From an uncultured Bacteroidales bacterium (GTDB lineage Bacteria > Bacteroidota > Bacteroidia > Bacteroidales > Bacteroidaceae), in the NCBI GenBank assembly GCA_902779165.1, contig CACZAN010000018.1, positions 44,844 through 108,843 of the forward strand: a DNA stretch of 64,000 nucleotides. The letters run 5' to 3'. Positions 25,059-44,714 of this stretch are shown here, one piece after another. The notes below the pieces were generated by a model, which was given only the letters and a program-made list of their open reading frames with translations, was not told the DNA's origin and did not search any database. Within the stretch, counting starts at the first letter, position 1; every line of letters begins with the position of its first letter. The translations under genes were made by a program, and so were the position numbers.

Positions 25059-25205
25059 GCCGAGACGTATATACATAAGGAACGGGACGTATATACATAA
25101 AGACCGAGACGTATATACGTGTAGCCCGTTACGTCCTTTTGCGGAGGCCGTTACGTCTTATCGCGGAGGCCGCTACGTCTTACCGCGGAAGCCGTTACGT
25201 CCTTT
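25059..25205. repeat. 22-base tandem repeats, arrays 2 and 3
   Basis: Array 2 (25062-25127) has three 22-base units with GACGTATATACATAA; array 3 (25128-25205) has four units of GTTACGTCTTATCGCGGAGG type. The last unit overlaps the stop codon and C-terminus of the S41 peptidase gene, which may owe its arginine-rich tail to it. Confidence 0.8.
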
Positions 25206-27375
25206 CGCCTCGGGATTCGGTTCTGTTTGTCTGTCTGCAGCGACGACGGAGGAATAGGGATAGGAGGATGAGGGCGAGGGCGGCGAGGATTGCGATGGCG
25301 TAGGGGAGATATTTACAAACTTCTGTCGCGGCGGCGGGCGGGTCGAGGTAGATGCCATTGGCAATGAGCTGGAGGGTGCGGTTGAGGATGTAGTCGCCCT
25401 CGTAGTGGAACTCGGCCTCACTCATGGGGATGTCGCAGTCGGGGATGACGCCGCGCAGGGCAGGCAGACGGTCGCTGACGGTCTCGTCGATGACCACGCG
25501 CACCATGGGGATGGTGGCAGAAAACTGGCTATTGGGGAGGTAGATATTAGCGAACTTGACGCAGGTCTCGGTGTGGTAGGCGCTCATGGTCTCACGGCCT
25601 ACGATATAACCGCGGTCGTTGCGCTTGATGGCTCCGGCCAGGAAGGCGGAAGCGGAGGCAGATCGGCTGTCGATGAGGACGTAGAGACGGCCGTTGTAAC
25701 CCAGCGAGTCGATGGTGGAAAGGATGGCGTTATCCTCTTCCTCCTCCATCCGATACAGCCCTTTCCGCCCTTCTAAGGGCTTGAAATCGCCGAAGATGGT
25801 GTCACCTTCCGGCCAGTTCATCGTGAGGCTCTTGAAGAGCGGAGCATTGACCTTCAGATAGCTGGTATGCGGACGATCGGGGATGCGTCCTAAGAGGGCA
25901 CGGGTCAAGCGATCCTGCACCTCGGAAGCGCCGCCGTAGTTGTTGCGGACGTCGAAGATGAGGTAGGGGATGCTATCGCGCTCGGCCTGATGAATGGCAT
26001 CGACGACGCTGTCGCAGTCCATATCGTTGAGGCCGAAGGTGCTGATGCCGATGTAGAGGACGCTGTCGTTGAGCTGACGGATGCCGAACGAACTGTTCTT
26101 ATACCGATTGGTCTGCCGGGCGTTCCACCACTTGTTACGGTCCTTGCTGTTCCCCATGAATCCTTCGGCCATGGGCAGCTCCAGCCGTTCGCCGTCCTCG
26201 AACTCATAGACGATGGTTCTGCCTTTGGGTTGAGGCCCGAGTTCGAGGCCGTAGTCGATGGAATTCCAGAAGCAGGCGTTGTAGTCGCCTACGGAGGTGA
26301 CGCCGGCGTCGTAGATGGTGGAATTGCGGCGGGTGATGGATATCAGGTCTGCGGCTGGCTTCCCGTCGATGCGTGCGATGCGCCGTCCTACGTAGGCGGC
26401 GTGGGTACTATCGGCTATCAGCACCACACAGGCATGGTCGGTCAGGGAGTCGCTGACGGCCACCTGCCCGAAGAATAGGGGAGGGTAGTAGTAGCCTAAG
26501 CCCTGTGTCTTCTCCTGCGGATTCGTGGGCACTTGGCAACTGATGCTGAGGTGCGAGTCGTGGATGACGGCGTTGTAGTCCTTGATGAGTCTGGCGAAGT
26601 CCTTCAGCGCAATGCCGTCGGCAGGGATGCGCGCCAGTTGTTCGCTGACGAAGGCATCGTACTCCGCCTCGGTCATCAGGTCATCTAAGGAGGGGTAAAT
26701 CTCCTTCACGCTACTGGCGAGTTGCTGGTAGTCAGCCATCGCCTCCTCGCGCGTCAGGTGGAACTTAGTCGGGACAGGCTCGGGTTTGTGGAAGGTGGTG
26801 CGCAGGCCGAAGGGCGTCATGGGGTCATCGGCTTTCGAATGACTCGAAACGCTCAGGCTGATGTGTGGTTCGTAGATGGCACGATAACTATAGCCCACGG
26901 TTCCGAGCACGTCGCCTCGCTTCAGATGCGTGCCGGTGGGAAGGGAGTTGTCGCGCCGTAAGCCCGTAATCCATAGCGTCTTGTCGCCAATCTGCAGCCC
27001 CATGAAGATGGAGACGGAACGGACGTCCATACCCCTTGCACGCCACTCTTCCTTCCCTTCGGCTACGACTTCATCAAAGGGCTTGTCGGGCGCACCAAAG
27101 CTGGAAGAGCTGGTGAGCGTGAAGTGGTAGTTGAGGCAGTAGAACCCCACCACGGCGTCGGCGGGACAGAGCACCCGCGTGCCCTCGGGGGCGGCGATGA
27201 AGAGGTTGTCGAAGTTGAATTCCTCGCCAATCCTATCCTGCGGACGATAGAGGATGCCCTCGCCCGCCTTCCGACCCTCAATGGGCCAGAGCCAAATGTC
27301 CTCCGCAGCAAGCGACAGGCTAAAAGTTAAGAACAGGGCCGCAGACAGCATACGGCAAAGGTTTCTTGTTTTCAT
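25195..27375 (-). CDS. S41-family peptidase with N-terminal LytM-like domain and C-terminal membrane anchor
   Basis: 726 residues with a signal peptide (cleaved near SLAAE). Residues about 25-190 look like a degenerate M23/LytM fold (GTRVLCPADAVVG, GTHLKRGDVLGTVGY, EPHISLSV). Residues about 215-650 form a tail-specific (S41) protease domain, with RNNYGGASEVQDRL and the catalytic serine in DSRSASASAFLAG. A transmembrane segment (about 690-710) followed by a basic tail anchors the C-terminus in the inner membrane, with the body in the periplasm. An ECF-type promoter shared with neighbouring envelope genes lies 27 bases upstream. A role in envelope signalling or cell-wall turnover is inferred. 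Confidence 0.8.
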   Translation of the reverse strand: MKTRNLCRMLSAALFLTFSLSLAAEDIWLWPIEGRKAGEGILYRPQDRIGEEFNFDNLFIAAPEGTRVLCPADAVVGFYCLNYHFTLTSSSSFGAPDKPFDEVVAEGKEEWRARGMDVRSVSIFMGLQIGDKTLWITGLRRDNSLPTGTHLKRGDVLGTVGYSYRAIYEPHISLSVSSHSKADDPMTPFGLRTTFHKPEPVPTKFHLTREEAMADYQQLASSVKEIYPSLDDLMTEAEYDAFVSEQLARIPADGIALKDFARLIKDYNAVIHDSHLSISCQVPTNPQEKTQGLGYYYPPLFFGQVAVSDSLTDHACVVLIADSTHAAYVGRRIARIDGKPAADLISITRRNSTIYDAGVTSVGDYNACFWNSIDYGLELGPQPKGRTIVYEFEDGERLELPMAEGFMGNSKDRNKWWNARQTNRYKNSSFGIRQLNDSVLYIGISTFGLNDMDCDSVVDAIHQAERDSIPYLIFDVRNNYGGASEVQDRLTRALLGRIPDRPHTSYLKVNAPLFKSLTMNWPEGDTIFGDFKPLEGRKGLYRMEEEEDNAILSTIDSLGYNGRLYVLIDSRSASASAFLAGAIKRNDRGYIVGRETMSAYHTETCVKFANIYLPNSQFSATIPMVRVVIDETVSDRLPALRGVIPDCDIPMSEAEFHYEGDYILNRTLQLIANGIYLDPPAAATEVCKYLPYAIAILAALALILLSLFLRRRCRQTNRTESRGERT

Positions 27376-27401: not shown

Positions 27402-27433
27402 TATAGAACGCATGAGGGCAGGATTTTTTACCC
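27402..27433 (-). promoter_or_regulatory. ECF-type promoter before the S41 peptidase gene
   Basis: Minus strand: GGGTAA (27428-27433), 17 bases, CGTTCTATA (27402-27410), 27 bases before the start codon. The same boxes and spacing recur at 33067, 34176, 37142 and 39589. The rest of the 182-base gap holds no gene. Confidence 0.65.
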
Positions 27434-27557
27434 ATAAAAAAGGTTAAAAGTCGTAGGTGGCTCATAAAATACATTTTAAAGGTACTCTGCGCATTCTTAT
27501 AATATAACGTATTTGTAGAGGAAATAGTTGTGTTGAAGCCGTTAAAACTTCTTAATC

Positions 27558-30320
27558 TTATAGTAATTTGAAACGCACAGTGGCGAGGATGTTCCGTGGA
27601 CGGAGCTGTGAGGTATTGGTGTAGATATCGAGGCCGGAATAGGTGACGCGGGTGTAGTGGCGCTGGTCGAATAGGTTGTTGAGTTGAAGTTCCAGGTCGC
27701 AACGTCTGAGCTTGTACTTGGCCTTGATGTCGCCAAACCAAGCATGGCGGTTTTCTGCGGTGAGATTCGTGTAGTTATCCTCGACGGCTGCGGAGAGGGT
27801 CATTTGCTTGGTGATATAGACATTCATCGAGAGACGCTGGGTGGCGGTACGCACGGTACGCAAGAGGTCACTTCCGCCGCTGTCGGTGTAGCTGCTGTTC
27901 CAAGAGTAGCCACTGCTCAGTACAAAGTTAAGCCATGGCAGGGGTGTTATTGTACCACCAGCTCCAATACTGATAGTGCGTGAATTAAATGGATAGAGCT
28001 GATCAGCTATCAGTTGTTCGCTGTGTGAATGGCCGTAGCCGCCGAAGGCACGGAGCGTGGTCTGTAGCCAGTCGAAGCCTTTGCTGAAATCGAAACTGAG
28101 GTTGTAGGAGTCTGCGGTAGTAGCCTGATCCACGGCCTGTACGACGCTGGTGGCCCCTTGATAGGAGTAGCCATAAATCTGATTGTCGCGGGTGTGGTTG
28201 TAATTAGCATTCAGACGGAAGAAGGTGGCGTTCAAGGCACTGCGATAGCCGATGCTGGCGCTGGTGCCGATACGGTCTGTCTCGGAGAGCTGTTCCACAT
28301 ACGACCTCTGGAACGAGCGGTAGTTGTTCATAATGTATCCGCTGTAGATGCCGCCCGGGTCGCCAACGTTTCTGTAGTACGAGGCTCCGATGTTGCCGCT
28401 CCAGTCGCGCCACTCATAGCTGGTGGAAAACGTAGGCGAGACAAGCAAGTGGACGTAGCTGTGCTTATCATCGCGGACGCGGTCATCAAGGGTCTGCGTG
28501 TAGAGGTTCAGCGGACAGCCGAGGCTGATGCGCCAGCCGCCGCGCTCCCACTTGTAATGCTGGCCAAGGGTAAGCTCGTAGGTGTTGTACCAAAGGTCGT
28601 TGCGTAGAGAGGGGGTGTCGCTGGGAGAGCTGCCGACCTCACTGCCAGAAGCGGCAGGAGGCGTGAATCCATCCAAGTCGGTGGTAATACCATGCAAGCT
28701 GGCATTGGCTATAATCCCGTATGACAGGGTAAAGTAACCGAAATGGAAATTATAGTTTGTGTGAAAGTTAGCGTTGATATGACGCGAGTCAATGTCTTGC
28801 TGATAGGCATGGGTGTTGAAAACTTCCTGCTGCATATTGAGCGAATCCACTCCTACAGCCAGCGTGTTGGGTCGCTGAGCATAGCCTGCCGAGAAATGCA
28901 GGTCGAGTGTATGCTTGCCGATATTCTTGATGAGATTCGTGGTGTTGCTTACCGCTAAAGATGGACGGTCGAAGTGCTGATGCGTTCTTTCGCTGCCATA
29001 ATTAATAGGCTGTGGGCCATTCAACTGTGATGCCAGTAATCCCTCAACCTTATCGTTGTTCCAACTACCGTCGAACTTGATAACATTTGCCAGAAAGCCG
29101 TCCTTGGCATTCCACATATAGCGCAGATTGCCGCTGAGGTCATTCAAGTGCGTCTGCGATATCAGCGTCTCGCTGGTCAGCAGACGGCTGTCTTCGCTGA
29201 TGAAGCGGTCGCTCTCTGATGTCCCCTCGCGGCGAATGTCGTCGTGGTGATAGGCGATGTTCATCGTTATCTCCGAGTCCTCACCCACTTTCTCCAAATG
29301 GTTCATGGTGGCGATGTGGCTGTGATTGTCGAAGGTGCGCTTCTGCGGCAGGCCGGAGCCGTTGGGCATGACGGCATTCATTGGGCAGAACGGGTACAGC
29401 CCCACGCTGTTGATACTGGAATAATGCTCTGTCAGTTCGCGGCTCACGTCATCGCCCGTGTTATTACCTTTATATAAGGTCATGTTCTGCCGCTTTTTAG
29501 CAAAGTACATGCCTACGATCTCCGCTGTCCAAAGCGGATTTTGGCCGATGACCGTCTGTCCGTCCGTGAGCGGTCGGCTACCGATGCGCCACGGGCTGGA
29601 CTGTTGCCATCCACCGCCCACCATCGTGTTTATTGCCACCGTCCCTTTTGCTGCGTTCTTCAGCTTCAGGTTGATGGCCACATCATCCGTCAGGCTCTTG
29701 TTCTGTAGTGCCTTGATGGGCTGATGGTGTTCCAAAACCTGCACTGTGGCTACGTCCGAGGCATTGATGTTGTTTGTGGCCAAGCCGTAACGTCCTTGCA
29801 GCAGATCCATGTCCTCCACGTAGAATTTCTTGATGGCCTTGCCATTGAATTTGATGGCGCCGCTCTCCGATACCTCGATGCCGGGCATTCGCTTCAGCAC
29901 GTCGCCAATGACGCGGTCGCCCTGCTGCTGGTAGGCACCAACGGTGTAGTTCAACGTGTCACCGTGCTGGCGTATCTTATCCGCTTTCACTGACACTTCT
30001 TTCAATTCTATCGCTTTCTGTCGCGCGCGGATGTCAACCCTCTGCGACTTGTTCGCCACCACCCGCGCCACATTGCCGATGGCCATGCCCGCCGCTGTCA
30101 CCACCACGGAGTCTGCCGCGCTCTTGAACTGCAACTTATAATATCCCTTCGCGTCCGTGTCCGCAAAGCCGATAATGCTCCCCGTCCCTTTCGGCGATAC
30201 CGTGACGTAAGCATCTACCGCCTGCCCGAGCGAGTCCGTCACCGTACCCTCGATAACAGTCTGAGCTTGCATCCTACCACCTATGACGAGGATGACCAAC
30301 ATGAGCAAAATACTTTTCAT
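27558..30320 (-). CDS. TonB-dependent receptor-like outer-membrane barrel
   Basis: 920 residues. Signal peptide to about residue 19 (MQAQ), then a carboxypeptidase-regulatory-like domain (about 21-95), a plug-like region (about 110-220, DVLKRMPGIEVSESG, NASDVATVQVLEHHQPI) and a long beta-barrel ending in an aromatic-rich strand. It lacks a SusC-type TonB box and SusD partner. Such barrels next to GLPGLI genes are a recurring Bacteroidetes pairing; the substrate is unknown. The start codon overlaps the stop codon of the GLPGLI gene by one base (TAATG), so translation is coupled and it is the last gene of the GLPGLI operon. Confidence 0.85.
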   Translation of the reverse strand: MKSILLMLVILVIGGRMQAQTVIEGTVTDSLGQAVDAYVTVSPKGTGSIIGFADTDAKGYYKLQFKSAADSVVVTAAGMAIGNVARVVANKSQRVDIRARQKAIELKEVSVKADKIRQHGDTLNYTVGAYQQQGDRVIGDVLKRMPGIEVSESGAIKFNGKAIKKFYVEDMDLLQGRYGLATNNINASDVATVQVLEHHQPIKALQNKSLTDDVAINLKLKNAAKGTVAINTMVGGGWQQSSPWRIGSRPLTDGQTVIGQNPLWTAEIVGMYFAKKRQNMTLYKGNNTGDDVSRELTEHYSSINSVGLYPFCPMNAVMPNGSGLPQKRTFDNHSHIATMNHLEKVGEDSEITMNIAYHHDDIRREGTSESDRFISEDSRLLTSETLISQTHLNDLSGNLRYMWNAKDGFLANVIKFDGSWNNDKVEGLLASQLNGPQPINYGSERTHQHFDRPSLAVSNTTNLIKNIGKHTLDLHFSAGYAQRPNTLAVGVDSLNMQQEVFNTHAYQQDIDSRHINANFHTNYNFHFGYFTLSYGIIANASLHGITTDLDGFTPPAASGSEVGSSPSDTPSLRNDLWYNTYELTLGQHYKWERGGWRISLGCPLNLYTQTLDDRVRDDKHSYVHLLVSPTFSTSYEWRDWSGNIGASYYRNVGDPGGIYSGYIMNNYRSFQRSYVEQLSETDRIGTSASIGYRSALNATFFRLNANYNHTRDNQIYGYSYQGATSVVQAVDQATTADSYNLSFDFSKGFDWLQTTLRAFGGYGHSHSEQLIADQLYPFNSRTISIGAGGTITPLPWLNFVLSSGYSWNSSYTDSGGSDLLRTVRTATQRLSMNVYITKQMTLSAAVEDNYTNLTAENRHAWFGDIKAKYKLRRCDLELQLNNLFDQRHYTRVTYSGLDIYTNTSQLRPRNILATVRFKLL

Positions 30321-31207
30321 TATTCTAATTCTAAGGGATTATAGGGCGTGAAAATAGATACGGCTTCGCCAATTGTTGTAGTTCCGTCGGGATTAATCGT
30401 GGCTTTATGGAAGTCTGTGGCCTTGAACCAGTTCTCGTGGAACGAGCGCTGCATCTTCCACACCTTCTCGCGCCCATAGCTGGTGTAGTTCTTGAACTCC
30501 TTGAAGCGTGTGATGGGATGCGGGCGAGTCTCGATGCCGATGGCCTCGAAGGTGTAAAGCCCATCCTTGTCCAGTACCTTCAGGATTAGTCCAGGCAAAC
30601 CGCCGAACTTCCATGGTCCGCGCTTCACTGGGATGGCGGGAGCGAACCAAGCGATGAAGTCGCGGCCACGGAAATGGCATGTAGCCTTCTGACATTTATA
30701 ACCGATGATGGTCTGTGTCTCGTTGGTCAACTTCCACTCTTGCTTCGGCACTGCCTCCCTATATTTCGAGTTGTAGCGATGCAGCCACTGTGGCATCTGG
30801 CAGTATTCTGTCAGCTGTCCGTTCTCAATGAAGTAGTCGCTCCACTCGTATTCGCTCCATTGGTCGTGCTCACGGCATTGCACGCCCATCCAACTCGGAA
30901 CGGCTTGTGCACCGGGATGCTCCTTGGCATACTTAGATCGCAGCGAGTCGCTCTGATAGACAAACTGGCTGTAGTACTTCGTGATGCGCCTGCCCACATC
31001 GAGTCTTTGCAAGTCGATGTACGTCAGGTGGTCATCAATCTTCTCGGCGCAGAAGGCGTAACGGACACGCAACCGCGTGGTATCGACCACTTCCATCTTT
31101 GAGAAGTCCCTGGCATAAATTGGTGCCGGGCAATGCCCGCCCTCTTTGGGTTGTGCACTTGCCTTGATGCATGCGGCGAGGACGATGATGATGATTCTCT
31201 TGTTCAT
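30320..31207 (-). CDS. GLPGLI family protein 3
   Basis: 295 residues with a signal peptide (AACIKASAQ). The defining motif FGGLPGLILKV stands near residue 205, preceded by RDFIAWFAPAIPVKRGPW. GLPGLI proteins are exported proteins of unknown function that lie next to TonB-dependent barrels in Bacteroidetes. This is the third of three tandem paralogues and is translationally coupled to the barrel gene. A periplasmic or surface role in binding the barrel's substrate is a guess. Confidence 0.88.
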   Translation of the reverse strand: MNKRIIIIVLAACIKASAQPKEGGHCPAPIYARDFSKMEVVDTTRLRVRYAFCAEKIDDHLTYIDLQRLDVGRRITKYYSQFVYQSDSLRSKYAKEHPGAQAVPSWMGVQCREHDQWSEYEWSDYFIENGQLTEYCQMPQWLHRYNSKYREAVPKQEWKLTNETQTIIGYKCQKATCHFRGRDFIAWFAPAIPVKRGPWKFGGLPGLILKVLDKDGLYTFEAIGIETRPHPITRFKEFKNYTSYGREKVWKMQRSFHENWFKATDFHKATINPDGTTTIGEAVSIFTPYNPLELE

Positions 31208-31219
31208 GTTGATGTCTGT

Positions 31220-32110
31220 TTATTCTAGCTCCATCGGGTCGTACTCATGCGGGGCAGACATCGGTTCACCCATGAAACCCGGCGCGTTGGGGTCATACTT
31301 GCGGCGGCCTGATGTCTTGAGGTAGTTGCGGTTGTAGGCGACTTGCAGCTTCCACGTCCGTTGGCGCGTGGAGGTCTTGAATTCCTCTTTCGGATACTGC
31401 CAGATGGGGAAGTCGCCTTTCTCGATGGCCACAGCCTCGAAGATGTAGAGCTTATCCTTGTCGAAGACTTTCAGAATAAGTCCAGGCAAGCCGCCGAACT
31501 TCCACGGTCCGCGCTTCACTGGGATGTCGGGGGCGAACCACGCTACGTAGTCTCGACCGCGCCAATGACAGGTAGCTTTTTGGCAGCGGTGACCAAGGAG
31601 CGTAGCCAGGCCTTCCTCCAGCTTCCACTCCTGACCAGTCCATTTCTCCTCATACCGTTGCGGCCACTCCTGTCCAGCAGGCATCATTGCCCATTCATTT
31701 AGCGTGTCGCCGTGGATGAAAATGTCGGAGAACTGATATTCACTCCAAATGCCGGGCTTACGGCCACGCATCCACCAAGTGCCGTTGGGAACATTCTGTG
31801 CGTGCGGGTTCTTCTTGCCCCATTCCACCCGCTCGTCGTCGGCCTGTTCCACAAAGAGGCTGCAATACTTTGTCATCCGTTTACCAATCTGCAGCTGACC
31901 GCAGTCCAGATACGTGCTGTCCTGCTTCAAGTCTGTGGCACCCCATGCATAGAGGATGCGCAGGTTCGCTGTGTCGATAGCTTTGCGCGCCAAGACAGTG
32001 TTGTGCTTGTTCATGGGCACCATGGCTCCACTTTGTTTCTGCTGTGCCCAAGCAACGCCGCATACGGCGAAGAAGGCAAGTACCATAATAACATCTTTCT
32101 TCATTTTCAA
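31220..32110 (-). CDS. GLPGLI family protein 2
   Basis: 296 residues, signal peptide ending AWAQ. It has RDYVAWFAPDIPVKRGPW then FGGLPGLILKVF, closely matching the copies on both sides, and the shared end ...YDPMELE. It is separated by 12 bases from the next gene and 16 from the previous one. The tandem triplication suggests divergent binding partners for one transport system. Confidence 0.88.
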   Translation of the reverse strand: MKMKKDVIMVLAFFAVCGVAWAQQKQSGAMVPMNKHNTVLARKAIDTANLRILYAWGATDLKQDSTYLDCGQLQIGKRMTKYCSLFVEQADDERVEWGKKNPHAQNVPNGTWWMRGRKPGIWSEYQFSDIFIHGDTLNEWAMMPAGQEWPQRYEEKWTGQEWKLEEGLATLLGHRCQKATCHWRGRDYVAWFAPDIPVKRGPWKFGGLPGLILKVFDKDKLYIFEAVAIEKGDFPIWQYPKEEFKTSTRQRTWKLQVAYNRNYLKTSGRRKYDPNAPGFMGEPMSAPHEYDPMELE

Positions 32111-32126
32111 TTTTACATATTATACA

Positions 32127-33029
32127 TTATTCAAGTTCAAGCGGTTCATACGGAATCTTAGGGCCGGAAGCTGTTACCCATTCGCCCACGGCATTTTTCA
32201 TCATGCCTCCACGGCGCCCCATGGCGTTCAAGAATCCCTCGTTCATCTCGCGGTTCAGTTTCAGGTAGCGTTCGCGGTTAGCCTTGCGGTAGCCTTCGTA
32301 TTGGTAGCGGGTGATGGGCTGCTTTCCTCGTTTGATACTCACGGCCTCGAAGGTGTAATGACAATCTTCGTCATAAAGCTTCAGGATGAGGCCTGGCAGT
32401 CCTCCGAAGATCCACGGACCGCGACGGATAGGGATATCGGGGGCGAACCAGGCGATGAATGTACGACCGTGCCAGTGGCAGGTAGCTTTCTGGCATGGAT
32501 GGCCTAGTATTGTTAATTTGTCCAAGCCAAGCATATCCAGCGTCCATTCCTGCCCTGGATATCGTTCCACTAAATACCCGTTCTCACCTTGGAAGCCGTG
32601 GGGCATGGTGTGGTATTCCGTTGCGGTGTTGTCCTCAATGTAGATGTCGGTGTACTGAATCTCGTTCCAGTAATCAGCGCGTTTGCCATGAATGGGACAA
32701 GCACGGGGAACGCCGTCGGCATGGGGATGGGCCAACTTCCACGTCTTCAAGAGTTCCTTCTGATGAGCCTCGCCTTCGCGCACAAATTCGCTGCTGCATT
32801 TGGTGATATGCTTGCCAACTTCTAAGACGCGTAAATCCATATACGTGTCCTGATTGCTGATTGTGTCGGCATTCAAAGCGTAATAAATGCGCACGTCGCT
32901 TGTATCGACCACTGCGGCCTTGCCCAGACGCTTACGCCCGAGTGTGATGATGCCAGCTTCCTTCTGCTGTGCCCAAGTCTCACCGCATACAGCAGCGATA
33001 ACAAGGAGTAAAAATGTAATTCTTTTCAT
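32127..33029 (-). CDS. GLPGLI family protein 1
   Basis: 300 residues, signal peptide ending TWAQ. It has RTFIAWFAPDIPIRRGPW and FGGLPGLILKLY and ends in ...YEPLELE like its paralogues. It is the first gene of the four-gene unit GLPGLI-GLPGLI-GLPGLI-barrel. An ECF-type promoter lies 38 bases before its start codon, placing the whole unit under the control suggested for this cluster. Confidence 0.88.
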   Translation of the reverse strand: MKRITFLLLVIAAVCGETWAQQKEAGIITLGRKRLGKAAVVDTSDVRIYYALNADTISNQDTYMDLRVLEVGKHITKCSSEFVREGEAHQKELLKTWKLAHPHADGVPRACPIHGKRADYWNEIQYTDIYIEDNTATEYHTMPHGFQGENGYLVERYPGQEWTLDMLGLDKLTILGHPCQKATCHWHGRTFIAWFAPDIPIRRGPWIFGGLPGLILKLYDEDCHYTFEAVSIKRGKQPITRYQYEGYRKANRERYLKLNREMNEGFLNAMGRRGGMMKNAVGEWVTASGPKIPYEPLELE

Positions 33030-33066: not shown

Positions 33067-33095
33067 TATAACGCATGACCGCATGAATCTTTACC
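33067..33095 (-). promoter_or_regulatory. ECF-type promoter of the GLPGLI operon
   Basis: Minus strand: GGTAA (33091-33095), 17 bases, CGTTATA (33067-33073). The bases just upstream (AACATCTTTTATA) are identical to those before the promoter at 34176. Confidence 0.72.
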
Positions 33096-33109
33096 TATAA
33101 AAGATGTTA

Positions 33110-33164
33110 AAAATAAAAGCCCCACCTCGTCATCACAACGAAGCGGGACCAATGTGCCTATAGG
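33110..33164 (-). terminator. Terminator after the sigma-TonB fusion gene
   Basis: On the minus strand CCTATAGGCAC is followed by a GTCCCGCTTCGT/ACGAGGTGGGGC stem and a T-rich stretch. A sister copy with the same CCTATAGGCAC box follows the oxidoreductase gene (61531-61580). Confidence 0.7.
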
Positions 33165-33199: not shown

Positions 33200-34147
33200 T
33201 TATTTTATATGAAATGTGATGGGCATACAAAAACGAGAACGAACATCACGACCATTATTCTTGGCTGGAATCCAAGGCTCTGTCAGGTGAAGGACGCGGA
33301 TGGCTTCGGCAGAGAGGCGTTCATCAGGTGTGCGCAGAACTTCAAAGTTTGTGAGGCGGCCATCTTTCTCCACCACGAAACGTAAAAAGACGCGCCCTTG
33401 CACGCTGTCTGCCTGTGCAGCTTCGGGATAATGCATTTCGAAGGCGATGTGGCGATAGAGAGCATCTATGTCTCCTTGATAGCTGGGCATCACCTCTGGT
33501 ATACCTTCAAAGATGGTTGTGTCCTCCGGAAACTTGAAAACCTTCTGGATAACACCACGTACAGTGCCGCGAGGACTGATGATAGCTGCAACTGCGATAC
33601 CTGTTGCTAATGCGATGAGGGTGAAAATGAGAAGATGACGTAGCCCGATGAAATGACGGCGCAAGTCTTTACGAAGGTTGCTTCGCACTTTGGAGATGGT
33701 CTTACGAACCGTGCTCACGGTAATGCCTCGCGCTTCGGCAATCTCCTCAACTGTCAATCCCTGATCATAAAATAATTGCCATACTTCGCGCTCGGCTTTT
33801 GGCAAACGTTGGAGGCGCGATTGTAACCATTCAGAGTTCTCGCGTTCCTCCATCTCTTCCTCTGGTGTAACCTCAGAGACAACAGAGCCATCTTCGTCTG
33901 TCAATTCTACCTGTGCACGCTGCCCACGCCACATTGAGACACAACAATTGCGGGCGATACGCAAGACGTATGCATCGGTAAGTGTCACACGCTCACGTAC
34001 GTTCCATGCTCTAAGCCATGTTTCCTGTACTACCTCCTCAGCCTCAGTGTCAGAACCGAAGAACTCATGCCCCATCTGCATCAGCCGAGGCCGCATCCTT
34101 TTAACCATTTGCTCGAACTCTTGTTCGGTCATAACGCTTTTATCCAT
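33200..34147 (-). CDS. ECF sigma factor fused to a transmembrane segment and TonB C-terminal domain
   Basis: 315 residues from ATG 34147 (29 bases after the promoter's -10 box). Residues about 10-75 are sigma-70 region 2 (AEEVVQETWLRAW, AYVLRIARNC), about 105-165 region 4 (LPKAEREVWQLFY, GLTVEEIAEARGITVSTVRK). A single hydrophobic helix follows at about 170-191, and residues about 225-315 are a TonB C-terminal domain (YPEAAQADSVQGRVFLRFVV ... PWIPAKNNGRDV). The order predicts a sigma domain in the cytoplasm tethered to the inner membrane with a TonB domain in the periplasm. Release by proteolysis on a signal from an outer-membrane barrel would be a natural mechanism but is inferred. It sits between the GLPGLI operon and another barrel gene. 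No anti-sigma gene adjoins it. Confidence 0.85.
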   Translation of the reverse strand: MDKSVMTEQEFEQMVKRMRPRLMQMGHEFFGSDTEAEEVVQETWLRAWNVRERVTLTDAYVLRIARNCCVSMWRGQRAQVELTDEDGSVVSEVTPEEEMEERENSEWLQSRLQRLPKAEREVWQLFYDQGLTVEEIAEARGITVSTVRKTISKVRSNLRKDLRRHFIGLRHLLIFTLIALATGIAVAAIISPRGTVRGVIQKVFKFPEDTTIFEGIPEVMPSYQGDIDALYRHIAFEMHYPEAAQADSVQGRVFLRFVVEKDGRLTNFEVLRTPDERLSAEAIRVLHLTEPWIPAKNNGRDVRSRFCMPITFHIK

Positions 34148-34175: not shown

Positions 34176-34204
34176 TATAACGCAGACCTCCCAAAAAGAT
34201 TACC
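34176..34204 (-). promoter_or_regulatory. ECF-type promoter of the sigma-TonB gene
   Basis: Minus strand: GGTAA (34200-34204), 17 bases, CGTTATA (34176-34182). The match to the GLPGLI promoter extends upstream through AACATCTTTTATA. Confidence 0.72.
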
Positions 34205-34282
34205 TATAAAAGATGTTAAAAGTCGAGACATAGATGATTTCTTCTAATTTATTCATGAGACTAGAGGTCAGCAAGAGTATCT

Positions 34283-37117
34283 TCACTCCTTCTTCTTCGC
34301 GTCGAGGTGATAGGTGAAGCTGAGGCCGATGTAGTGGTGGCGAAAGTCGTAGCGGGTGACGGTCTGCTGCGAGGCACTCTGGCTGATACTTTTGTCGTCT
34401 TCGGCGTTGAGGATATCGTCCAGTTCCAGTTTCAGGCGGGCTTTGTTCTTCAGGATTTTCCAGGTGACGGAGGCATCCCAGACGAGGAGGTTGCGGTTCA
34501 TGCTTTCTACGGTGTAGCCGCTGTACATGTGTTCGGTCAGGGAGGTGGTGAAGACGAAGTTGCCCTTCGTCAGTTCGCCGCGAAAGCCGAATTTGTTGGA
34601 CCAGATGGTGGTGTTCTGATCGGGTGATTCGGAGTAGCGCAGACGGTTGGGACTGAGCTCGCCATAGAGGGAGAGCTTCAGCCAGCTCCAGTCGGCAGAG
34701 AGAGTGAGGCGGTCGGTGGTACGGAGCTGGTGCTGGCGGTTGAGGGTGGGAGCTACAGAAGCGGGGACGGAGTTTTCAAGGGTGGAGGGGAAACTCGACG
34801 GGGATACCGCTGGGTGCACTATTTGTGTGAGGAAGGCGTAGTTCTGTTCTGTGGCGAGTCGCAGGTCGTTCTGCAGGCGGAAGATGTCGCCGAAGCCTTG
34901 GTCGTAGTTCAGCCGGAAGTTCAAGTAGCGCGAGCCGCGTACATTTTCCGGGCGGCTGGTGTAGATACCAGTGGAGGGTTGGTAGGTGAGGGCTGTGCGC
35001 GTCTCGCGGTCGCTGAACTTATAGTCAATAGTGGCGCTGAGCGAGAGTTGCTGCTTAGCCAGCACGGTATTGAAGTTCAGTTGGAAATTGTTGGTGTGGG
35101 TGTCCTTCAGGTCGGGGTTGCCCTCGGTGATGAAGAGCGGGTCGGTCTGGTCGCGGTAGGCGAGGGTGCTGATGAGCGAGGGCTGTGAGGTGGAGTAGTT
35201 GTAGTTCAGCTCCAGACCGATGGTACGGGCAATCTTCCACGTGATGCGCAGGGAGGGTTCAAGGAGCAGGCGGCGGCGCGTGGCGGTGGTGTCGAGGAGC
35301 CCACGCTGATAGTCCTGGCGTTCGCGCTGCAACTTTGTAGAGAGACGGGGCATGAGCTTTATGGGCGAGAGGTCGATGGTGGAACTGAGGTTCACAGCGT
35401 GGCGCCAGAGGTCGTTGTGGTCGCTATATGAGTTGGCGGCATCGGCCATGCCATCTGTCTCGAAGTCCTGATGGCTGCGGTTGCGTTTGTAGTCGAAGGT
35501 ATATTCGACTCCCATGAGCCATCGCTTCAAGAGCCATTGCTTGTAGTGACCTTCGGCAGTGGCGGAGAAGTAGGTGGAGGGGGTGAAGGAATATTGACTG
35601 AAAGATTTGGCGAGGGAAGAGGGGAGCGTGGTTCCAGCGGCGGAACCGCTGGACACGGTGCGCAGGTCTTCAACCTGGCGGTCGGTCCATTGGCGGTCTT
35701 TGCTGTTGGTGTAGTTGATTCTAAAGCTGGCGCCGAGTTCTGCGTCGTTGTTCATGAAGTGATACCAGGTGCCTTCGGTGTTGAATTTGAATTCGTGACC
35801 CTTGCCGTGGTGGTTCGTCAGCTGACGCAGCAGCCCTTCCTGTGTCATATCCGTGTATCCGTTGGAACGTTTGTCCGTGAAGTCTGCATTAGCCTCGAAG
35901 AGGAGGGTGTTCAGCGAATCGATGTCCCAGGCGAAATAGGTATTGAGATAAGGGTTGAGCTTATGGTTGCGCTGGTAGTTCTCGGAACTGGTGCGCTTGA
36001 CATCGGCGTCCTCCAGATAGTTCTCCGTGTCGCGGCGGGTGGTGCTCCATTGGTCGAAATGCGATAGTCCGCCGCTGGCGCTATAGTGGCTGCTCATTTC
36101 CTGGGTGCCCTCCTGCCTGCGCCAGTTGTGCTGGTATCCGCCCGCTGCACTCTGTCCCTGACCGTTGCCCTTTCCATAACTACCCCAGCCTCCGTTCATG
36201 GTGCGGTGTTTCTGCTTGTTCACATTATTGGCATCGAGGAAGAGCATGGCGGGATTGTCCTTGGACAGGCGATGCATGTCGAGGTCTGCCTCGTAGTGAT
36301 CGGGACTCTGGTAGCCGGCGGTGGCATCGCCGTACCAGCGGTCGAGGAAGCCCGGCTTGATGGTCAGGTCGAGGACCATATCCTCGCCGCCATCGTCCTT
36401 GCCGGTGCGCTGGCTGAACTTCGAGGACTTGTTGTACGCCTTGATGCTCTCCACCGCCTCGGCAGGCAGCTGGCTGACAAGAGCGTTGCCGCCGAAGAGG
36501 CTCTCGCCGTCCATGGTGATGCGGATGGGTTTTCCGTTCCATGTCATGCTGCCGTCCTCAGCCACCTGTACACCTGGCAGCTGCTTGATGAGTTCGTCCA
36601 GCCGTGCTCCTTCCTGCAGGTGGAAGGCTTCAGGGTTGAAGACGATGGTGTCGCCTCGGACAGTGAAGCGACGGGCACGTCCCTTCACCTCCAGCATTTT
36701 CATCAGCGTCTCGGAGGGCTTCAGTTCGATGTCACCCACATTGATGGTGTCCTTGCGGTCGTCGGAGAAGCCCAGCACCGCCTTCGTCTTGGAATAATAG
36801 CCTATCATGGAAGCCTCCAGCGTGCCGCGTCCGCTCAGGTTCAGGTGGAAACAGCCTAATGTGTCGGTTGTGCTTTGCATGATCCAGGTAGCCGTGTGCC
36901 CATTGTAGTCCTTCGTCTGCATCAACTTGAGTGTGGCTTCGGGCAGCGGCTCCTTGGTTTCTGCATCTACCACGCGCCCCTTCAGGATGTCGGCCTGAAG
37001 CGTCGTTGGAAGGAGGAAAAAGACCCACCCCCAAACCCCTCCCATAAGGGCGGGGAGTAGCTGGCGCATAACGACTGTTTTAATGCGTGCCATTATCACT
37101 ACGACGCTTTGCTTCAT
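34283..37117 (-). CDS. Outer-membrane beta-barrel with carboxypeptidase-like N-domain (TonB-receptor-like)
   Basis: 944 residues. The signal peptide is unusual: its hydrophobic core (LLPALMGGVWGWVFFLLPTT) is encoded by a GC-rich palindromic repeat. Then come a regulatory-like domain (about 44-130, KGRVVDAETKEPLPEA), a plug-like domain (about 140-270, LDELIKQLPGVQVAEDGS, NALVSQLPAEAVESIKAY) and a barrel to the end. It belongs to the group of TonB-receptor-like proteins without a SusD partner. It stands directly upstream, in transcription order, of the sigma-TonB gene and has its own ECF-type promoter. The natural partner for the TonB domain of that protein may be this barrel or the one at 27558. 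Confidence 0.85.
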   Translation of the reverse strand: MKQSVVVIMARIKTVVMRQLLPALMGGVWGWVFFLLPTTLQADILKGRVVDAETKEPLPEATLKLMQTKDYNGHTATWIMQSTTDTLGCFHLNLSGRGTLEASMIGYYSKTKAVLGFSDDRKDTINVGDIELKPSETLMKMLEVKGRARRFTVRGDTIVFNPEAFHLQEGARLDELIKQLPGVQVAEDGSMTWNGKPIRITMDGESLFGGNALVSQLPAEAVESIKAYNKSSKFSQRTGKDDGGEDMVLDLTIKPGFLDRWYGDATAGYQSPDHYEADLDMHRLSKDNPAMLFLDANNVNKQKHRTMNGGWGSYGKGNGQGQSAAGGYQHNWRRQEGTQEMSSHYSASGGLSHFDQWSTTRRDTENYLEDADVKRTSSENYQRNHKLNPYLNTYFAWDIDSLNTLLFEANADFTDKRSNGYTDMTQEGLLRQLTNHHGKGHEFKFNTEGTWYHFMNNDAELGASFRINYTNSKDRQWTDRQVEDLRTVSSGSAAGTTLPSSLAKSFSQYSFTPSTYFSATAEGHYKQWLLKRWLMGVEYTFDYKRNRSHQDFETDGMADAANSYSDHNDLWRHAVNLSSTIDLSPIKLMPRLSTKLQRERQDYQRGLLDTTATRRRLLLEPSLRITWKIARTIGLELNYNYSTSQPSLISTLAYRDQTDPLFITEGNPDLKDTHTNNFQLNFNTVLAKQQLSLSATIDYKFSDRETRTALTYQPSTGIYTSRPENVRGSRYLNFRLNYDQGFGDIFRLQNDLRLATEQNYAFLTQIVHPAVSPSSFPSTLENSVPASVAPTLNRQHQLRTTDRLTLSADWSWLKLSLYGELSPNRLRYSESPDQNTTIWSNKFGFRGELTKGNFVFTTSLTEHMYSGYTVESMNRNLLVWDASVTWKILKNKARLKLELDDILNAEDDKSISQSASQQTVTRYDFRHHYIGLSFTYHLDAKKKE
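37021..37058. repeat. GC-rich REP-like palindrome in a signal-peptide-coding region
   Basis: AGACCCACCCCC then CCCCTCCC-ataa-GGGCGGGGAG. Same family as 43908, 46848, 50858, 52301, 52431, 53526 and 59871. Confidence 0.8.
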
Positions 37118-37141: not shown

Positions 37142-37171
37142 TATAACGCGGGTGACATGTTTTTATTATCC
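37142..37171 (-). promoter_or_regulatory. ECF-type promoter of the barrel gene
   Basis: Minus strand: GGATAA (37166-37171), 17 bases, CGTTATA (37142-37148), 25 bases before the start codon. The upstream box differs by one insertion from GGTAA. Confidence 0.5.
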
Positions 37172-38369: not shown

Positions 38370-39092
38370 TCAAAATGCGATGATAGGCTGCACCGGTTCT
38401 TCGCCCGTGATGATGCTGGTCTGGTAGGCGCTCACAGTTTCCTGTACGGCTCGTTGTCTGTAGGCTACCTGCAGGGCAATTTCTGCAAGATAGATGTCTG
38501 CGAGGGCTTGGCGGTCCTGGGGCAATGGGGGCAGAGTATCTTGTGGGGGCAATTCTTCGGAATGCGTTATAGGATCTGCCTGGGCGGTTTGTGGGAGCTC
38601 GCTTGGCTCGTACCCGCAGCTAATAGGTTGCGACGGCTCTGCTGACTGGCAGGTGGGGGTTGGTGCGGGCTGCGAGGAGTCTGGCTGCAGCCTCTCTGTC
38701 CGTGAGGACGGCTTTGGAAGCGCTTCTGCCACAAGAGGTTTTGATGTGGCTTCGGTATTTTCCATAGCCGTTGTTGGCCTGTAATCTGTTGCGTGGGATG
38801 CTTGTGATACGAGTGCAGGTTGTTCAGATGATGACAGAGGTCGCGCGTCTGGCCACAAAAGAATTACTGTTACCACCACAGCCGCCACAGCTGCCGCCGC
38901 CCACGGCCACAGAGGAATGCGGCGAGCCGACGGCTTGCGTTCTGCTATAATCTTGTCGAACTCCGCCTCTGCCGCATCCAGTTCCTCGTCTGACGGCAAG
39001 TTCAGGCGCTCGGCGTGCAAGGGTGCCTGACCCGCAAGATAGTGTTCAAGGTTTATGCTCTCATACTTCACGTTTAATTCTTTACTATTCAT
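38370..39092 (-). CDS. Membrane protein, probable anti-sigma factor
   Basis: 240 residues. An acidic helical N-terminal part (about 1-58, DEELDAAEAEFDKIIAERK) is cytoplasmic, one transmembrane helix spans about 60-80, and a low-complexity Pro/Ser/Gln-rich region and a helical tail are periplasmic. There is no zinc-binding HxxxCxxC motif, so it is not a classical ZAS protein. The call rests on topology and on the four-base overlap with the ECF sigma gene, which is the standard arrangement of sigma/anti-sigma pairs. Confidence 0.65.
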   Translation of the reverse strand: MNSKELNVKYESINLEHYLAGQAPLHAERLNLPSDEELDAAEAEFDKIIAERKPSARRIPLWPWAAAAVAAVVVTVILLWPDARPLSSSEQPALVSQASHATDYRPTTAMENTEATSKPLVAEALPKPSSRTERLQPDSSQPAPTPTCQSAEPSQPISCGYEPSELPQTAQADPITHSEELPPQDTLPPLPQDRQALADIYLAEIALQVAYRQRAVQETVSAYQTSIITGEEPVQPIIAF

Positions 39093-39580
39093 AGTGCTCC
39101 TCCTTTCTTTAATGATTCAACGATATGTCTTCGTGCTGTGCTGAGCATAGCGCTCACGCTGCGTACCGCAATTCCAGTAGCGGCAGCTATCTGGGCGCTG
39201 CTCATCTGTGCTTCAGCAAACAGCGTCCACAACCTGCGCTCGGATGGAGACAGTGCAGCGACGGCTTGTTCCAGGGCTTGCTGCAGTTCGGTTTCATGAA
39301 TAGCATCCTCCGAGGCCACAGCTGTATTGTCCTTCAGCTCCACCGTCTGTTGTTGCTGGTTCTGACGAAAGACATCGATGCAGGCATGTTTCGTGAGCCG
39401 TACCGCTAACCGCTCTGCATCTTTCTCCGTGGCCAGTCTTTCCCACGCCGTCCACAGCCGCATCAACGCCTCTTGTACAGCATCCTCAGCGGCATCGCTG
39501 CCAGCATTAAACTGCAACGCGAGAGCCAGCAACCGAGGACGAAGTCGTGAAACAACGAATGTGAACATTTCTGCTTTCAT
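39089..39580 (-). CDS. ECF-type RNA polymerase sigma factor
   Basis: 163 residues from ATG 39580; a second ATG at 39568 (MFTFVVSRLRP) gives a better distance to the promoter at 39589 and may be the real start. Region 2 is at about 8-70 (DAAEDAVQEALMRLWTAWE) and region 4 at about 100-155 (LSPSERRLWTLFAEAQMSSAQIAAATGIAVRSVS). It is the first gene of a unit with an anti-sigma candidate and an exported protein. It is preceded by the same ECF-type motif as four other units in this cluster, which suggests autoregulation and that it, or the sigma-TonB protein, reads that motif. Confidence 0.88.
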   Translation of the reverse strand: MKAEMFTFVVSRLRPRLLALALQFNAGSDAAEDAVQEALMRLWTAWERLATEKDAERLAVRLTKHACIDVFRQNQQQQTVELKDNTAVASEDAIHETELQQALEQAVAALSPSERRLWTLFAEAQMSSAQIAAATGIAVRSVSAMLSTARRHIVESLKKGGAL

Positions 39581-39588
39581 AACATCTA

Positions 39589-39617
39589 TATAACGCAGAA
39601 AGACTCCCATGTTAACT
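39589..39617 (-). promoter_or_regulatory. ECF-type promoter of the sigma operon
   Basis: Minus strand: GTTAA (39613-39617), 17 bases, CGTTATA (39589-39595). The -10 box agrees fully with the other four sites; the -35 box has one mismatch. Confidence 0.55.
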
Positions 39618-41774: not shown

Positions 41775-44714
41775 TTAGTATGACAGATAGAGGTAGTTGG
41801 TCTGTGCAGGATACTCTGCGGCAAGGGTGTCGATCTGGTTGACGGTGGGCTGGATGCCGAGTTCCTTCCGCCAACGACGCACGGTCAGTCCAGCCGCTTC
41901 CATCGAACGTGTAGCGCCGAGACCGAGAGCCCGTGCAATTTGGAAGTCGGAGAATCCATAGACCTTGGCTTCGCGAAGGAGGTGGACGAACTCCGGCGCT
42001 TCGAGGTATTCGATGAGTTCCAGCGGATCCATGACCTCTGCCATGTATGCTACCTGTGAGAACTCTCTAAGTCGGTCGTTGATGTCGACGATGTGCTTCA
42101 GTTTCTGCAGGAACCAACGGTCGATCTTCGTCAGCGAATGGATCTGCTCCACGGTGTAGCCCGTCAGCATGGCCTGTGCAATGACGAAGATACGGGTGTC
42201 GGTGGCGTGCTTCAGTGCCTCGGAGATGCCTGTGACGTGCTGCGCCTTATTATCCACGAAACCATGCATACCCTGTCCGACCATGCGCAGTCCCTTCTGC
42301 ATCGCTTCCTCGAAGGTGCGTCCAATGGCCATAACCTCGCCGACACTCTTCATCGAGGAGCCCAGTTCGTGGTTCACGCCATGGAACTTGGAGAGGTCCC
42401 AGCGTGGAATCTTACAAACGACGTAGTCGAGGGCTGGCTCGAAGAAGGCGCTGGTGGTCCTCGTGACAGAGTTCTTCAGGTCGAAGAGGGCGTAGCCGAG
42501 GCCGAGTTTGGCGGCGACGAAGGCGAGGGGATAGCCTGTTGCCTTTGAGGCGAGAGCTGAGGAGCGTGAGAGGCGTGCATTCACCTCGATGACCCGGTAA
42601 TCCTCAGAGTTGGGGTCGAGGGCATATTGCACGTTGCACTCGCCGACGATGCCTATATGGCAGATGATCTTGATGGCGAGGGCACGGAGCTTGTGGTATT
42701 CACTGTTGGTGAGGGTCTGGGAGGGAGCCACGACGATGGATTCGCCCGTATGGATTCCGAGGGGGTCGAAATTCTCCATGTTGCAGACCGTGATGCAGTT
42801 GTCGAAGCGGTCGCGCACGACCTCATATTCGATTTCTTTCCAGCCTTTTAGGGATTTCTCCACCAGCACCTGCGGGGAGAAAGAGAAGGCTTCCTCGGCT
42901 TGTGCGAGCAGTTCCTCTTCGTTGTCGCAGAAGCCGGAGCCGAGGCCTCCGAGGGCGTAGGCAGCTCTGAGGATGACAGGGAAACCCAGCTCATGGGCGG
43001 CCTGTTGCACCTCTGCGATGGTGGAGCAGGCTTCGCTCTTGATGGTTTTCACGTCGATTTCATCGAGACGCTTCACGAAGAGTTCGCGGTCTTCGGTGTC
43101 GATGATGGCTTGTACGGGGGTGCCCAAGACCCTCACGCCGTATTTCTCCAGGATGCCGCGCTTGTAGAGTTCTACGCCGCAGTTCAGTGCCGTCTGTCCG
43201 CCAAAGGAGAGCAAGATGCCGTCTGGCCGTTCCTTCTCAATGACTCGTTCTACGAATTCGGGCGTCACGGGCTGGAAATACACGACATCGGCTATATCCT
43301 TGGATGTTTGGACGGTAGCGATATTCGGGTTGATGAGTATGCTTCGCACTCCCTCTTCCTTCAGCGCCTTCAGCGCCTGAGCTCCAGAGTAGTCGAACTC
43401 GCCCGCCTGCCCGATTTTCAGGGCGCCTGAGCCGAGGAGGAGAACTTTCTTTATAGTTGACGAATTGTTTCCTTCTTTTATAGTTGACGAGTTGTTTCCT
43501 TCTTCATCCAACTTGTCAACTTGTTTACTTTTGAACTTTTGAACTTTTGAACTTTTGAACTTTTCGACTAAAGAAACGAACTCATCAAACATCCATTCCG
43601 TATCTGTAGGTCCGCTGCAGGCTTCAGGGTGGAACTGGGCACTGAACCAGGGGTAGGTCTTGTGACGGATACCTTCGTTGGAATCGTCGTTCATATTCAC
43701 AAAGAGAGGTTCCCAATCGGAAGGTAGGGTGCTGGCATCGACGGCATAACCGTGATTCTGCGAGGTGATAAAGCACTTTGTCGTACCCACCTGCTGCACG
43801 GGCTGATTGTGCGAGCGGTGGCCGTATTTCAGCTTGTAGGTCTTCGCTCCTGCGGCGCGGGCCAAAAGCTGGTTGCCGAGGCAGATGCCCATGAGAGGTC
43901 TTACAACAGACCCACCCCCGACCCCTCCCATTAGGGAGGGGAGCTTTGCAGTCTCGTTCTTAAGGAAAGTCCTTATGTGCTCCACCGTTGCTTCACAGCG
44001 TTCCGGGTCGCCAGGACCATTGGCCAGGAAGAGACCATCAAAGTCCAACTGGTTGAAGTCATAATCCCAAGGAACACGGATGACTTCTACGCCACGCTTG
44101 AGGAGACAGCGGATGATGTTGGCTTTCACGCCGCAATCGACGAGGACAACGCGCTTTAATTTACGATTTACGATTTGTTCCGTTGGCTTGTAGGTAATCA
44201 CTTCCTTGCAACTTACCTGCTCCACCCAGTTTATGGAGCCGTAGGCTAGATTCTCTAGAGAGCCTGGTTTTTCTAAATGGCCTAGACCTTCTATAATAAT
44301 CCGTCCCATCATCACTCCGTGCTCGCGAAGAACCTTTGTCAGACGGCGGGTGTCAATTCCAGTGATAGCAGGAATGCCTTCGCGCTTCAGCCAATCACCG
44401 AGCGATTCCTTGGCATTCCAGTGCGAGAACTCGTCGCTATAATCTGCTACGATGATGGCCTTAGGGTGAATTCGGTCGCTCTCCATGAAATGCGGAAGGG
44501 GTGTTCCTTCCGTTTCGGGTACACCATAATTTCCTATGAGCGGATAGGTGAAGGTCAGAATCTGTCCGGCATAGCTGGGGTCGGTCAAACTCTCGGGATA
44601 ACCCGTCATGGCCGTATTGAACACCACTTCACCCGCCGTGTTCTGCTCTGCTCCGAACGACCAGCCGCAAAACACCGTGCCATCTTCCAATATCAGTCTC
44701 GCTTGCTGCTTCAT
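41775..44714 (-). CDS. carAB: CarA fused to the N-terminal half of CarB (carbamoyl-phosphate synthase)
   Basis: 979 residues in one frame. Residues 1-385 are a full CarA glutamine amidotransferase (catalytic Cys in MGICLGNQL, His-Glu in FHPEACSG). After a repeat-derived linker (about 386-425) comes CarB from VLLLGSGALKIGQAGEFDYSG to TNYLYLSY, that is the carboxyphosphate ATP-grasp domain and the oligomerisation domain. Translation stops where the second ATP-grasp half should begin, and the following DNA is not CarB-like. Half-size synthases are known to work as dimers, so it may still be active; otherwise a complete enzyme is encoded elsewhere. Three different repeats are inserted in frame. 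It is in the glutamine-enzyme operon after asnB. Confidence 0.88.
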   Translation of the reverse strand: MKQQARLILEDGTVFCGWSFGAEQNTAGEVVFNTAMTGYPESLTDPSYAGQILTFTYPLIGNYGVPETEGTPLPHFMESDRIHPKAIIVADYSDEFSHWNAKESLGDWLKREGIPAITGIDTRRLTKVLREHGVMMGRIIIEGLGHLEKPGSLENLAYGSINWVEQVSCKEVITYKPTEQIVNRKLKRVVLVDCGVKANIIRCLLKRGVEVIRVPWDYDFNQLDFDGLFLANGPGDPERCEATVEHIRTFLKNETAKLPSLMGGVGGGSVVRPLMGICLGNQLLARAAGAKTYKLKYGHRSHNQPVQQVGTTKCFITSQNHGYAVDASTLPSDWEPLFVNMNDDSNEGIRHKTYPWFSAQFHPEACSGPTDTEWMFDEFVSLVEKFKSSKVQKFKSKQVDKLDEEGNNSSTIKEGNNSSTIKKVLLLGSGALKIGQAGEFDYSGAQALKALKEEGVRSILINPNIATVQTSKDIADVVYFQPVTPEFVERVIEKERPDGILLSFGGQTALNCGVELYKRGILEKYGVRVLGTPVQAIIDTEDRELFVKRLDEIDVKTIKSEACSTIAEVQQAAHELGFPVILRAAYALGGLGSGFCDNEEELLAQAEEAFSFSPQVLVEKSLKGWKEIEYEVVRDRFDNCITVCNMENFDPLGIHTGESIVVAPSQTLTNSEYHKLRALAIKIICHIGIVGECNVQYALDPNSEDYRVIEVNARLSRSSALASKATGYPLAFVAAKLGLGYALFDLKNSVTRTTSAFFEPALDYVVCKIPRWDLSKFHGVNHELGSSMKSVGEVMAIGRTFEEAMQKGLRMVGQGMHGFVDNKAQHVTGISEALKHATDTRIFVIAQAMLTGYTVEQIHSLTKIDRWFLQKLKHIVDINDRLREFSQVAYMAEVMDPLELIEYLEAPEFVHLLREAKVYGFSDFQIARALGLGATRSMEAAGLTVRRWRKELGIQPTVNQIDTLAAEYPAQTNYLYLSY
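43454..43567. repeat. In-frame TTGACRAG element and tandem repeats at the CarA-CarB junction
   Basis: Contains a 27-base tandem duplication (giving EGNNSSTIK twice), a GTTGACGAGTTG ... CAACTTGTCAAC inverted pair (giving KQVDKL) and four GAACTTTT units. Layout equals the insert in the GH43 gene. Confidence 0.85.
43908..43943. repeat. GC-rich REP-like palindrome inside carA
   Basis: AGACCCACCCCCG then CCCCTCCC-atta-GGGAGGGG. It adds about 15 residues (LPSLMGGVGGGSV) just before the catalytic MGICLG motif. Confidence 0.85.
44245..44305. repeat. In-frame CTAGGCCAT repeat inside carA
   Basis: Coding strand GTCTAGGCCATTTAGAA and CTCTAGAGAATCTAG, giving GLGHLEKPGSLENL. A related sequence is inserted in gltD at 60541. 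Confidence 0.55.

Follow-up and report, generated by a model that had tools for sequence, protein, structure and literature searches.

A Sigma Factor and a TonB Domain in One Reading Frame

The window, a stretch of 64,000 nucleotides of DNA from an uncultured Bacteroidales bacterium, carries on its reverse strand a gene (33200–34147) that encodes 315 amino acids plus stop in one uninterrupted frame. Its product comprises sigma factor regions 2 and 4 (residues 14–157), a transmembrane helix (residues ~172–190) and a TonB C-terminal domain (residues ~212–315). On the same strand lie three genes of the GLPGLI family (32127–33029, 31220–32110 and 30320–31207), each above the cut-off of TIGR01200, as well as a gene for a receptor-like outer-membrane barrel protein with a CarboxypepD_reg-like N-terminus as recognized by Pfam (27558–30320) and a gene for an S41 peptidase (25195–27375; Peptidase_S41, E = 1e-16). 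A promoter-like motif of two boxes, conserved in relatives, precedes the fusion gene (34176–34220, reverse strand). A longer reading of the fusion from an ATG at 34231 is unlikely, since it would overlap this motif.

The first-pass annotation had read ECF regions 2 and 4, a single transmembrane helix and a TonB C-terminal domain in one uninterrupted frame, and profile searches and hydropathy agree with this reading. Pfam places Sigma70_r2 at residues 14–77 (E = 3.1e-10), Sigma70_r4_2 at 106–157 (E = 8.4e-11) and TonB_C (PF03544) at 238–314 (E = 5.7e-15), all three exceeding the curated cut-offs. The general NCBIfam model for ECF factors, TIGR02937, gives the sigma half 81.9 bits against a cut-off of 42.9. 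Region 3 reaches E = 0.038 at best in Pfam and falls inside region 4, so that the protein, with regions 2 and 4 and without region 3, has the domain plan of an ECF sigma factor. Only about 10 residues separate region 4 from the helix, with no separate anti-sigma domain between them, and the periplasmic portion spans ~120 residues. The TonB_C domain is 39% identical to the TonB-like protein from the same genome.

A single strong hydrophobic stretch occupies residues 172–190, with a mean Kyte-Doolittle value of 2.73 against 0.83 for the next best elsewhere in the protein, and one such stretch is present at the equivalent position in all 27 aligned sequences. Net positive charge precedes it, which fits a cytoplasmic N-terminus as far as charge can tell; the rule is not clear-cut here, because most of the 27 rows carry net positive charge in the 15 residues past the helix too. 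In the ColabFold prediction, residues 211–315 reach pLDDT values of 83–94 by block, within a model of overall pLDDT 76.5 and pTM 0.43 whose helix region scores 47–68. Both the sigma and the TonB part are folded in the model, which also contains an unbroken helix (H144–190), in which the last helix of the sigma part runs on into the transmembrane helix. Foldseek pairs the periplasmic part with the FoxA-bound TonB domain (6i97_D, TMt 0.76, rmsd 1.6 Å over 79 columns), indicating that it models as a TonB domain, as had been anticipated; for the sigma part it finds SigW (5wur_A, E = 2.9e-6). Searched by sequence with a profile of 27 sequences, the Protein Data Bank likewise returns sigma factors and TonB domains (34 matches).

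Distribution and Conservation of the Fusion

A full-length fusion is present in 10 of the 201 sampled genomes of its own family, its own genome included, across six genera; the nine other proteins are 55–76% identical to the window protein. At least 32 loci in Prevotella-type MAGs carry the fusion, at least 27 of them at full length (54–84% identity), and at least nine of the MAG loci are the same contigs as in the family sample. Five of the loci among the matches listed are partial, four of these reaching a contig end. Record titles among the matches listed name Prevotella, Prevotellaceae, Bacteroidaceae or Bacteroidales, and wherever a title names an animal it is a ruminant. Full-length matches were seen neither in the 294 other genomes of an order sample (E up to 1e-20) nor in the 394 other genomes of a phylum sample (E up to 1e-33), two samples that overlap, contain a few genomes of the same family and were scored on the best few candidates per genome, so that very divergent or independently made fusions would escape them. 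As far as the samples tell, the fusion is therefore a lineage-restricted invention of one group of gut bacteria.

Over 26 homologues, the sigma part is best conserved, with a mean identity to the window protein of 82%, compared with 67% for TonB_C and 64% for the helix. Values of dN range from 0.08 to 0.16 for the sigma part and from 0.13 to 0.38 for TonB_C, at a dS of 0.8–2.4 in the 16 of 21 comparisons (helix included) in which it was computable, dS being undefined in the other five. Judged by the computable pairs, in which dN lies well below dS, both halves of the fusion are under purifying selection. The worry raised at the outset, that the gene might be unique and broken by a stop or frameshift between its sigma and TonB parts, is removed by the uninterrupted frame and by the full-length homologues in nine other genomes and at the MAG loci, which show that the fusion is not a sequencing error; conservation across genomes and the dN/dS values together rule out a sequencing or frameshift artefact.

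A tree of 74 TonB_C domains weakly favors a single origin of the TonB_C of the fusions (31/0; 32% of bootstrap trees). Apart from this, the alignment suggests that the fusion genes at L058, L054, L042, L041 and L056 are mosaic alleles: their N-terminal part or promoter resembles one neighbor and the sequence from the helix onwards another, as if parts had been exchanged.

The Neighborhood of the Fusion Gene

Among the matches listed, a homologue of the barrel protein at 27558–30320 is encoded downstream of the fusion at 20 of 32 loci. Nine of the 12 loci without one end soon after the fusion, again among the matches listed, and L039, L041 and L042 continue for 5–10 kb downstream without a barrel homologue. 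In the same set of listed matches, GLPGLI genes occur at 21 of the 32 loci, one of them as a fragment, and an S41 gene lies near the fusion at four of the 32, once at 32% identity, with many contigs ending early. The first-pass annotation had placed barrel genes on both sides of the fusion in one regulated cluster. This stands for the gene at 27558, a conserved neighbor within a motif-led operon, but not for the barrel gene at 34283, whose place beside the fusion is not conserved across the 32 loci among the matches listed and before which no full two-box motif was found.

The barrel protein at 27558 is weakly recognizable as a receptor, since the Pfam Plug domain appears in one of 11 homologues (E = 0.039). 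Pfam detects no STN domain in the barrel protein or its 11 homologues, which carry CarboxypepD_reg instead. The structural model of the barrel reaches a pLDDT of 46.1, and its profile matches no solved structure up to E = 1. Past the barrel gene, each of the nine loci examined encodes a small protein that looks secreted and has hardly anything besides a TonB_C domain (L043:7403–7819, L044:15713–16147, L049:11217–11699 and six further loci); at L054, its frame continues from the barrel.

Barrel and GLPGLI genes are also found together without the fusion in many relatives, indicating that the fusion either joined an existing cassette or was lost from others. We examined 18 cassettes without a linked fusion and found no conserved replacement regulator at these loci, which represent 17 of the 25 genomes that lack the fusion but have a barrel match, plus a second cassette of the fusion genome G072. 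Elsewhere in the window, positions 41775–44714 hold a single frame of 979 amino acids in which the small chain of carbamoyl-phosphate synthase is followed by roughly the first half of the large chain, both named by eye.

A Two-Box Motif and a Candidate Regulon

The motif consists of TTTAACATYTTTTATRGG (box 1), 18 bases and TGYGTTATA (box 2). Before the fusion gene, box 1 lies at 34203–34220 and box 2 at 34176–34184. Two more copies, both on the reverse strand, precede the first GLPGLI gene (33067–33111, 0 mismatches), which heads a second motif-led unit, and the S41 peptidase gene (27404–27448, 2 mismatches). Allowing up to three mismatches, box 1 has three matches in the window against 0.00 expected from shuffling; box 2 alone is not enriched (11 found, 8.8 expected). 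Across the genome (3.59 Mb), box 1 with at most one mismatch matches four times, three times in the cluster and once before another S41 gene; two further matches have two mismatches, and the reversed control gave one match. The second S41 gene, within L153:8586–12205 on another contig of the same genome, encodes a protein 31% identical to the S41 peptidase of the window. Beside it lies a gene for a 454-residue protein that by eye resembles a sensor of the M56/BlaR1 type and ends in TonB_C, and L173 contains a similar pair.

Across the 32 fusion loci among the matches listed (423,892 bases), the two-box pattern with up to five mismatches gives 45 matches and the reversed pattern none. These matches precede the fusion 31 times, a GLPGLI gene nine times, a barrel gene three times, an S41 gene twice and nothing else; because the motif was first derived from the window and from the stretches preceding fusion genes, independence holds only for matches in other loci that precede other genes. 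L065 is the sole locus among the matches listed without the motif before its fusion. At up to two mismatches, the motif occurs in 11 of the 201 family genomes, namely in nine of the ten with the fusion and in two of the 191 without it. The fusion genome missed at this threshold (G086) has a copy with five mismatches. The two genomes without a detected fusion (G176 and G198) have the motif ahead of an S41 gene and of a GLPGLI gene, on contigs of 8.3 and 4.4 kb, and they are exceptions to the association unless their fusion was missed through a gap in the assembly. No match within seven mismatches was found at the 18 barrel cassettes that lack a linked fusion, one of them from G176, which has its motif elsewhere, and another being the additional cassette of the fusion genome G072. 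Fisher values of 4e-13 and 1e-12 were obtained, with related genomes and loci treated as independent in spite of their shared ancestry.

The motif lies 27–46 bp before the start codon of non-fusion genes and 29–31 bp before that of most fusion genes, a spacing that would suit a promoter. Its core, GTAAAC or a variant, 15 bases and CGTTATA, looks like an ECF promoter in sequence. Box 1 falls on the likely −35 region and extends upstream of it, so part of the promoter specificity may come from something else. The same core without box 1 (GTTAAC, 15 bases, CGTTATA) precedes the sigma factor gene at 39089–39610. The motif shared by the fusion gene and the GLPGLI/barrel operon supports the earlier proposal that the fusion belongs to a co-regulated cluster with a barrel gene.

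Comparison with Known Systems

Sigma factors that carry membrane and periplasmic regulatory parts in the same chain are already known from IutY and from ECF48, ECF52 and ECF53. In the literature covered, outside which most subscription journals lie, no title reports a TonB domain in the role of a sigma regulator. IutY of Pseudomonas putida (ECF243) consists of a sigma factor that a single helix connects to an anti-sigma domain in the periplasm, a plan that a review terms unique. It is activated by Prc and then RseP, with Prc required for periplasmic parts longer than ~50 residues. The fusion resembles IutY in uniting, within one chain, regions 2 and 4, a single transmembrane segment and a regulatory domain on the periplasmic side, in the near-equal spacing of its sigma regions (8–84 and 100–164 in IutY, 14–77 and 106–157 in the fusion) and in its linkage to a gene for an outer-membrane receptor-like protein.

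The periplasmic domain of IutY is FecR-like, whereas that of the fusion is TonB_C, and the fusion belongs to a different phylum and has different neighbors (GLPGLI genes and an S41 peptidase gene). No FecR-type family appears among the Pfam matches of the fusion up to E = 1, which, together with the lack of an STN domain in the barrel, places the fusion outside the IutY/FecR family; membership in it can be ruled out. The actinobacterial groups ECF48, ECF52 and ECF53 share the plan of a sigma factor with a C-terminal extension bearing one or two transmembrane helices, and proteolytic release is expected for them. Their extensions carry a zinc-finger anti-sigma domain, in ECF52 also a carbohydrate-binding domain, whereas the fusion bears a TonB domain and leaves no space where an anti-sigma domain could fit.

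With TonB proteins, the fusion has the C-terminal domain in common by sequence and fold, and it differs from them in its short linker and in a sigma domain that replaces the short cytoplasmic N-terminus. Within NCBIfam, the sigma half scores best against the PG0214/GFO_1088 sigma family of Bacteroidota, with 101.6 bits, below the cut-off of 130. In contrast to the one-chain fusion, the member of this type in the window (39089–39610) stands as a gene of its own, with a small membrane-protein gene after it. This second ECF pair (38370–39610), in which the small protein has one hydrophobic stretch, lies upstream of the barrel gene at 34283 and shows the classical two-gene arrangement of sigma factor and membrane partner.

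Proposed Mechanism and Its Alternatives

We hypothesize, with a probability of roughly 0.55, that the fusion is a membrane-tethered and probably autoregulated ECF sigma factor that senses through TonB_C and, in the manner of IutY, is set free by proteolysis. Of its parts, control of the motif-led regulon by the tethered sigma factor is likely; proteolytic release, although the leading mechanism, falls somewhat short of an even chance. The sigma part would read the two-box motif and drive its own gene together with envelope genes, and the intact fusion would be held at the membrane. There, TonB_C may sense something near the inner membrane. The TonB_C fold binds a single beta strand, and candidate ligands are the barrel protein on its way through the periplasm, by way of a strand resembling a TonB box, or else a GLPGLI protein or the soluble TonB_C protein of the same operon. 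A signal would expose the chain to proteolysis in two steps, plausibly by an S41 peptidase and then by a site-2 protease, freeing the sigma part. Prc is an S41-type enzyme, and the S41 gene inside the candidate regulon would provide positive feedback. A site-2 protease (Pfam M50) is present in all nine other fusion genomes; none was found by Pfam M50 in the window's own assembly, which is 86% complete, against 13 of the 13 relatives searched.

The linker between helix and TonB_C bears directly on what the domain may do. Its median length is 21 residues with two prolines in 26 fusion rows, one of them misclassified (L054, the source of the maximum of 957), compared with 92 residues and nine prolines in 17 TonB-like rows. 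Such a short linker likely keeps TonB_C near the inner membrane and favors sensing of a periplasmic partner over outer-membrane reach or energy transfer. The first-pass annotation had also suggested that the protein could join energy coupling directly to transcription, and the short, proline-poor linker makes this unlikely; receptor sensing and release by intramembrane proteolysis, which it had also put forward, are plausible. If the protein were a functional transducer supplying energy to the barrel, with the sigma domain as a reporter of transport, this would account for the close resemblance of TonB_C to genuine TonB domains both by sequence and by fold, for its identity to the TonB-like protein of its own genome and for the conserved barrel neighbor. 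We nevertheless consider it very improbable: besides the linker, no ExbB or ExbD gene was recognized on inspection of the fusion neighbors, and the polar S...H motif conserved in TonB helices is not visible in the fusion alignment. Still less credence is due to a chance fusion or assembly artefact without function, which could appeal to the origin of most fusion sequences in metagenome assemblies; the full-length gene recurs in independent assemblies, both halves are under purifying selection and the promoter motif is conserved.

ToxR- and CadC-type regulators work while anchored in the membrane, and the fusion might do the same, its sigma part acting uncleaved and TonB_C altering its orientation or oligomeric state. 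The continuous helix H144–190 of the model could relay a conformational change, and the site-2 protease missing from the window's own assembly would fit such a scheme, which we regard as unlikely in view of the protease in all the other fusion genomes and of IutY, the only one-chain sigma factor of this shape with reported experiments, which needs proteolysis. Rather less plausible again is a motif read by another regulator, with the fusion gene as one target among others and different promoters for the sigma factor itself. The reach of box 1 upstream of the expected −35 and the presence of box 2 alone, not enriched in the window, before other genes (39589–39597 and 37142–37150) would suit this, but the motif tracks the fusion across genomes at a promoter-like distance from start codons. 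The tethered and proteolytically released sigma factor can be developed further into a one-chain sensor-to-promoter device, in which TonB_C recognizes a TonB-box-like strand, belonging to a receptor in the outer membrane or to one still in the periplasm, and passes the signal to transcription with neither an anti-sigma factor nor a separate TonB, the S41 peptidases of the regulon feeding back on release. We put this extended version forward as a speculative idea that is more likely wrong than right.

Implications

According to one paper (PMC7406223), only 6% of ECF sigma factors in Bacteroidota lie beside a gene for a class I anti-sigma factor, compared with 32% across phyla. With its sharply defined candidate regulon, the fusion makes it possible to test how a sigma factor might be controlled where no anti-sigma gene takes part. 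If the proposed reading is true, a TonB domain would serve as a sensor and not as a motor, and the GLPGLI proteins would gain a regulatory setting. A single molecule would then monitor the cell envelope and turn on the envelope genes under its control.
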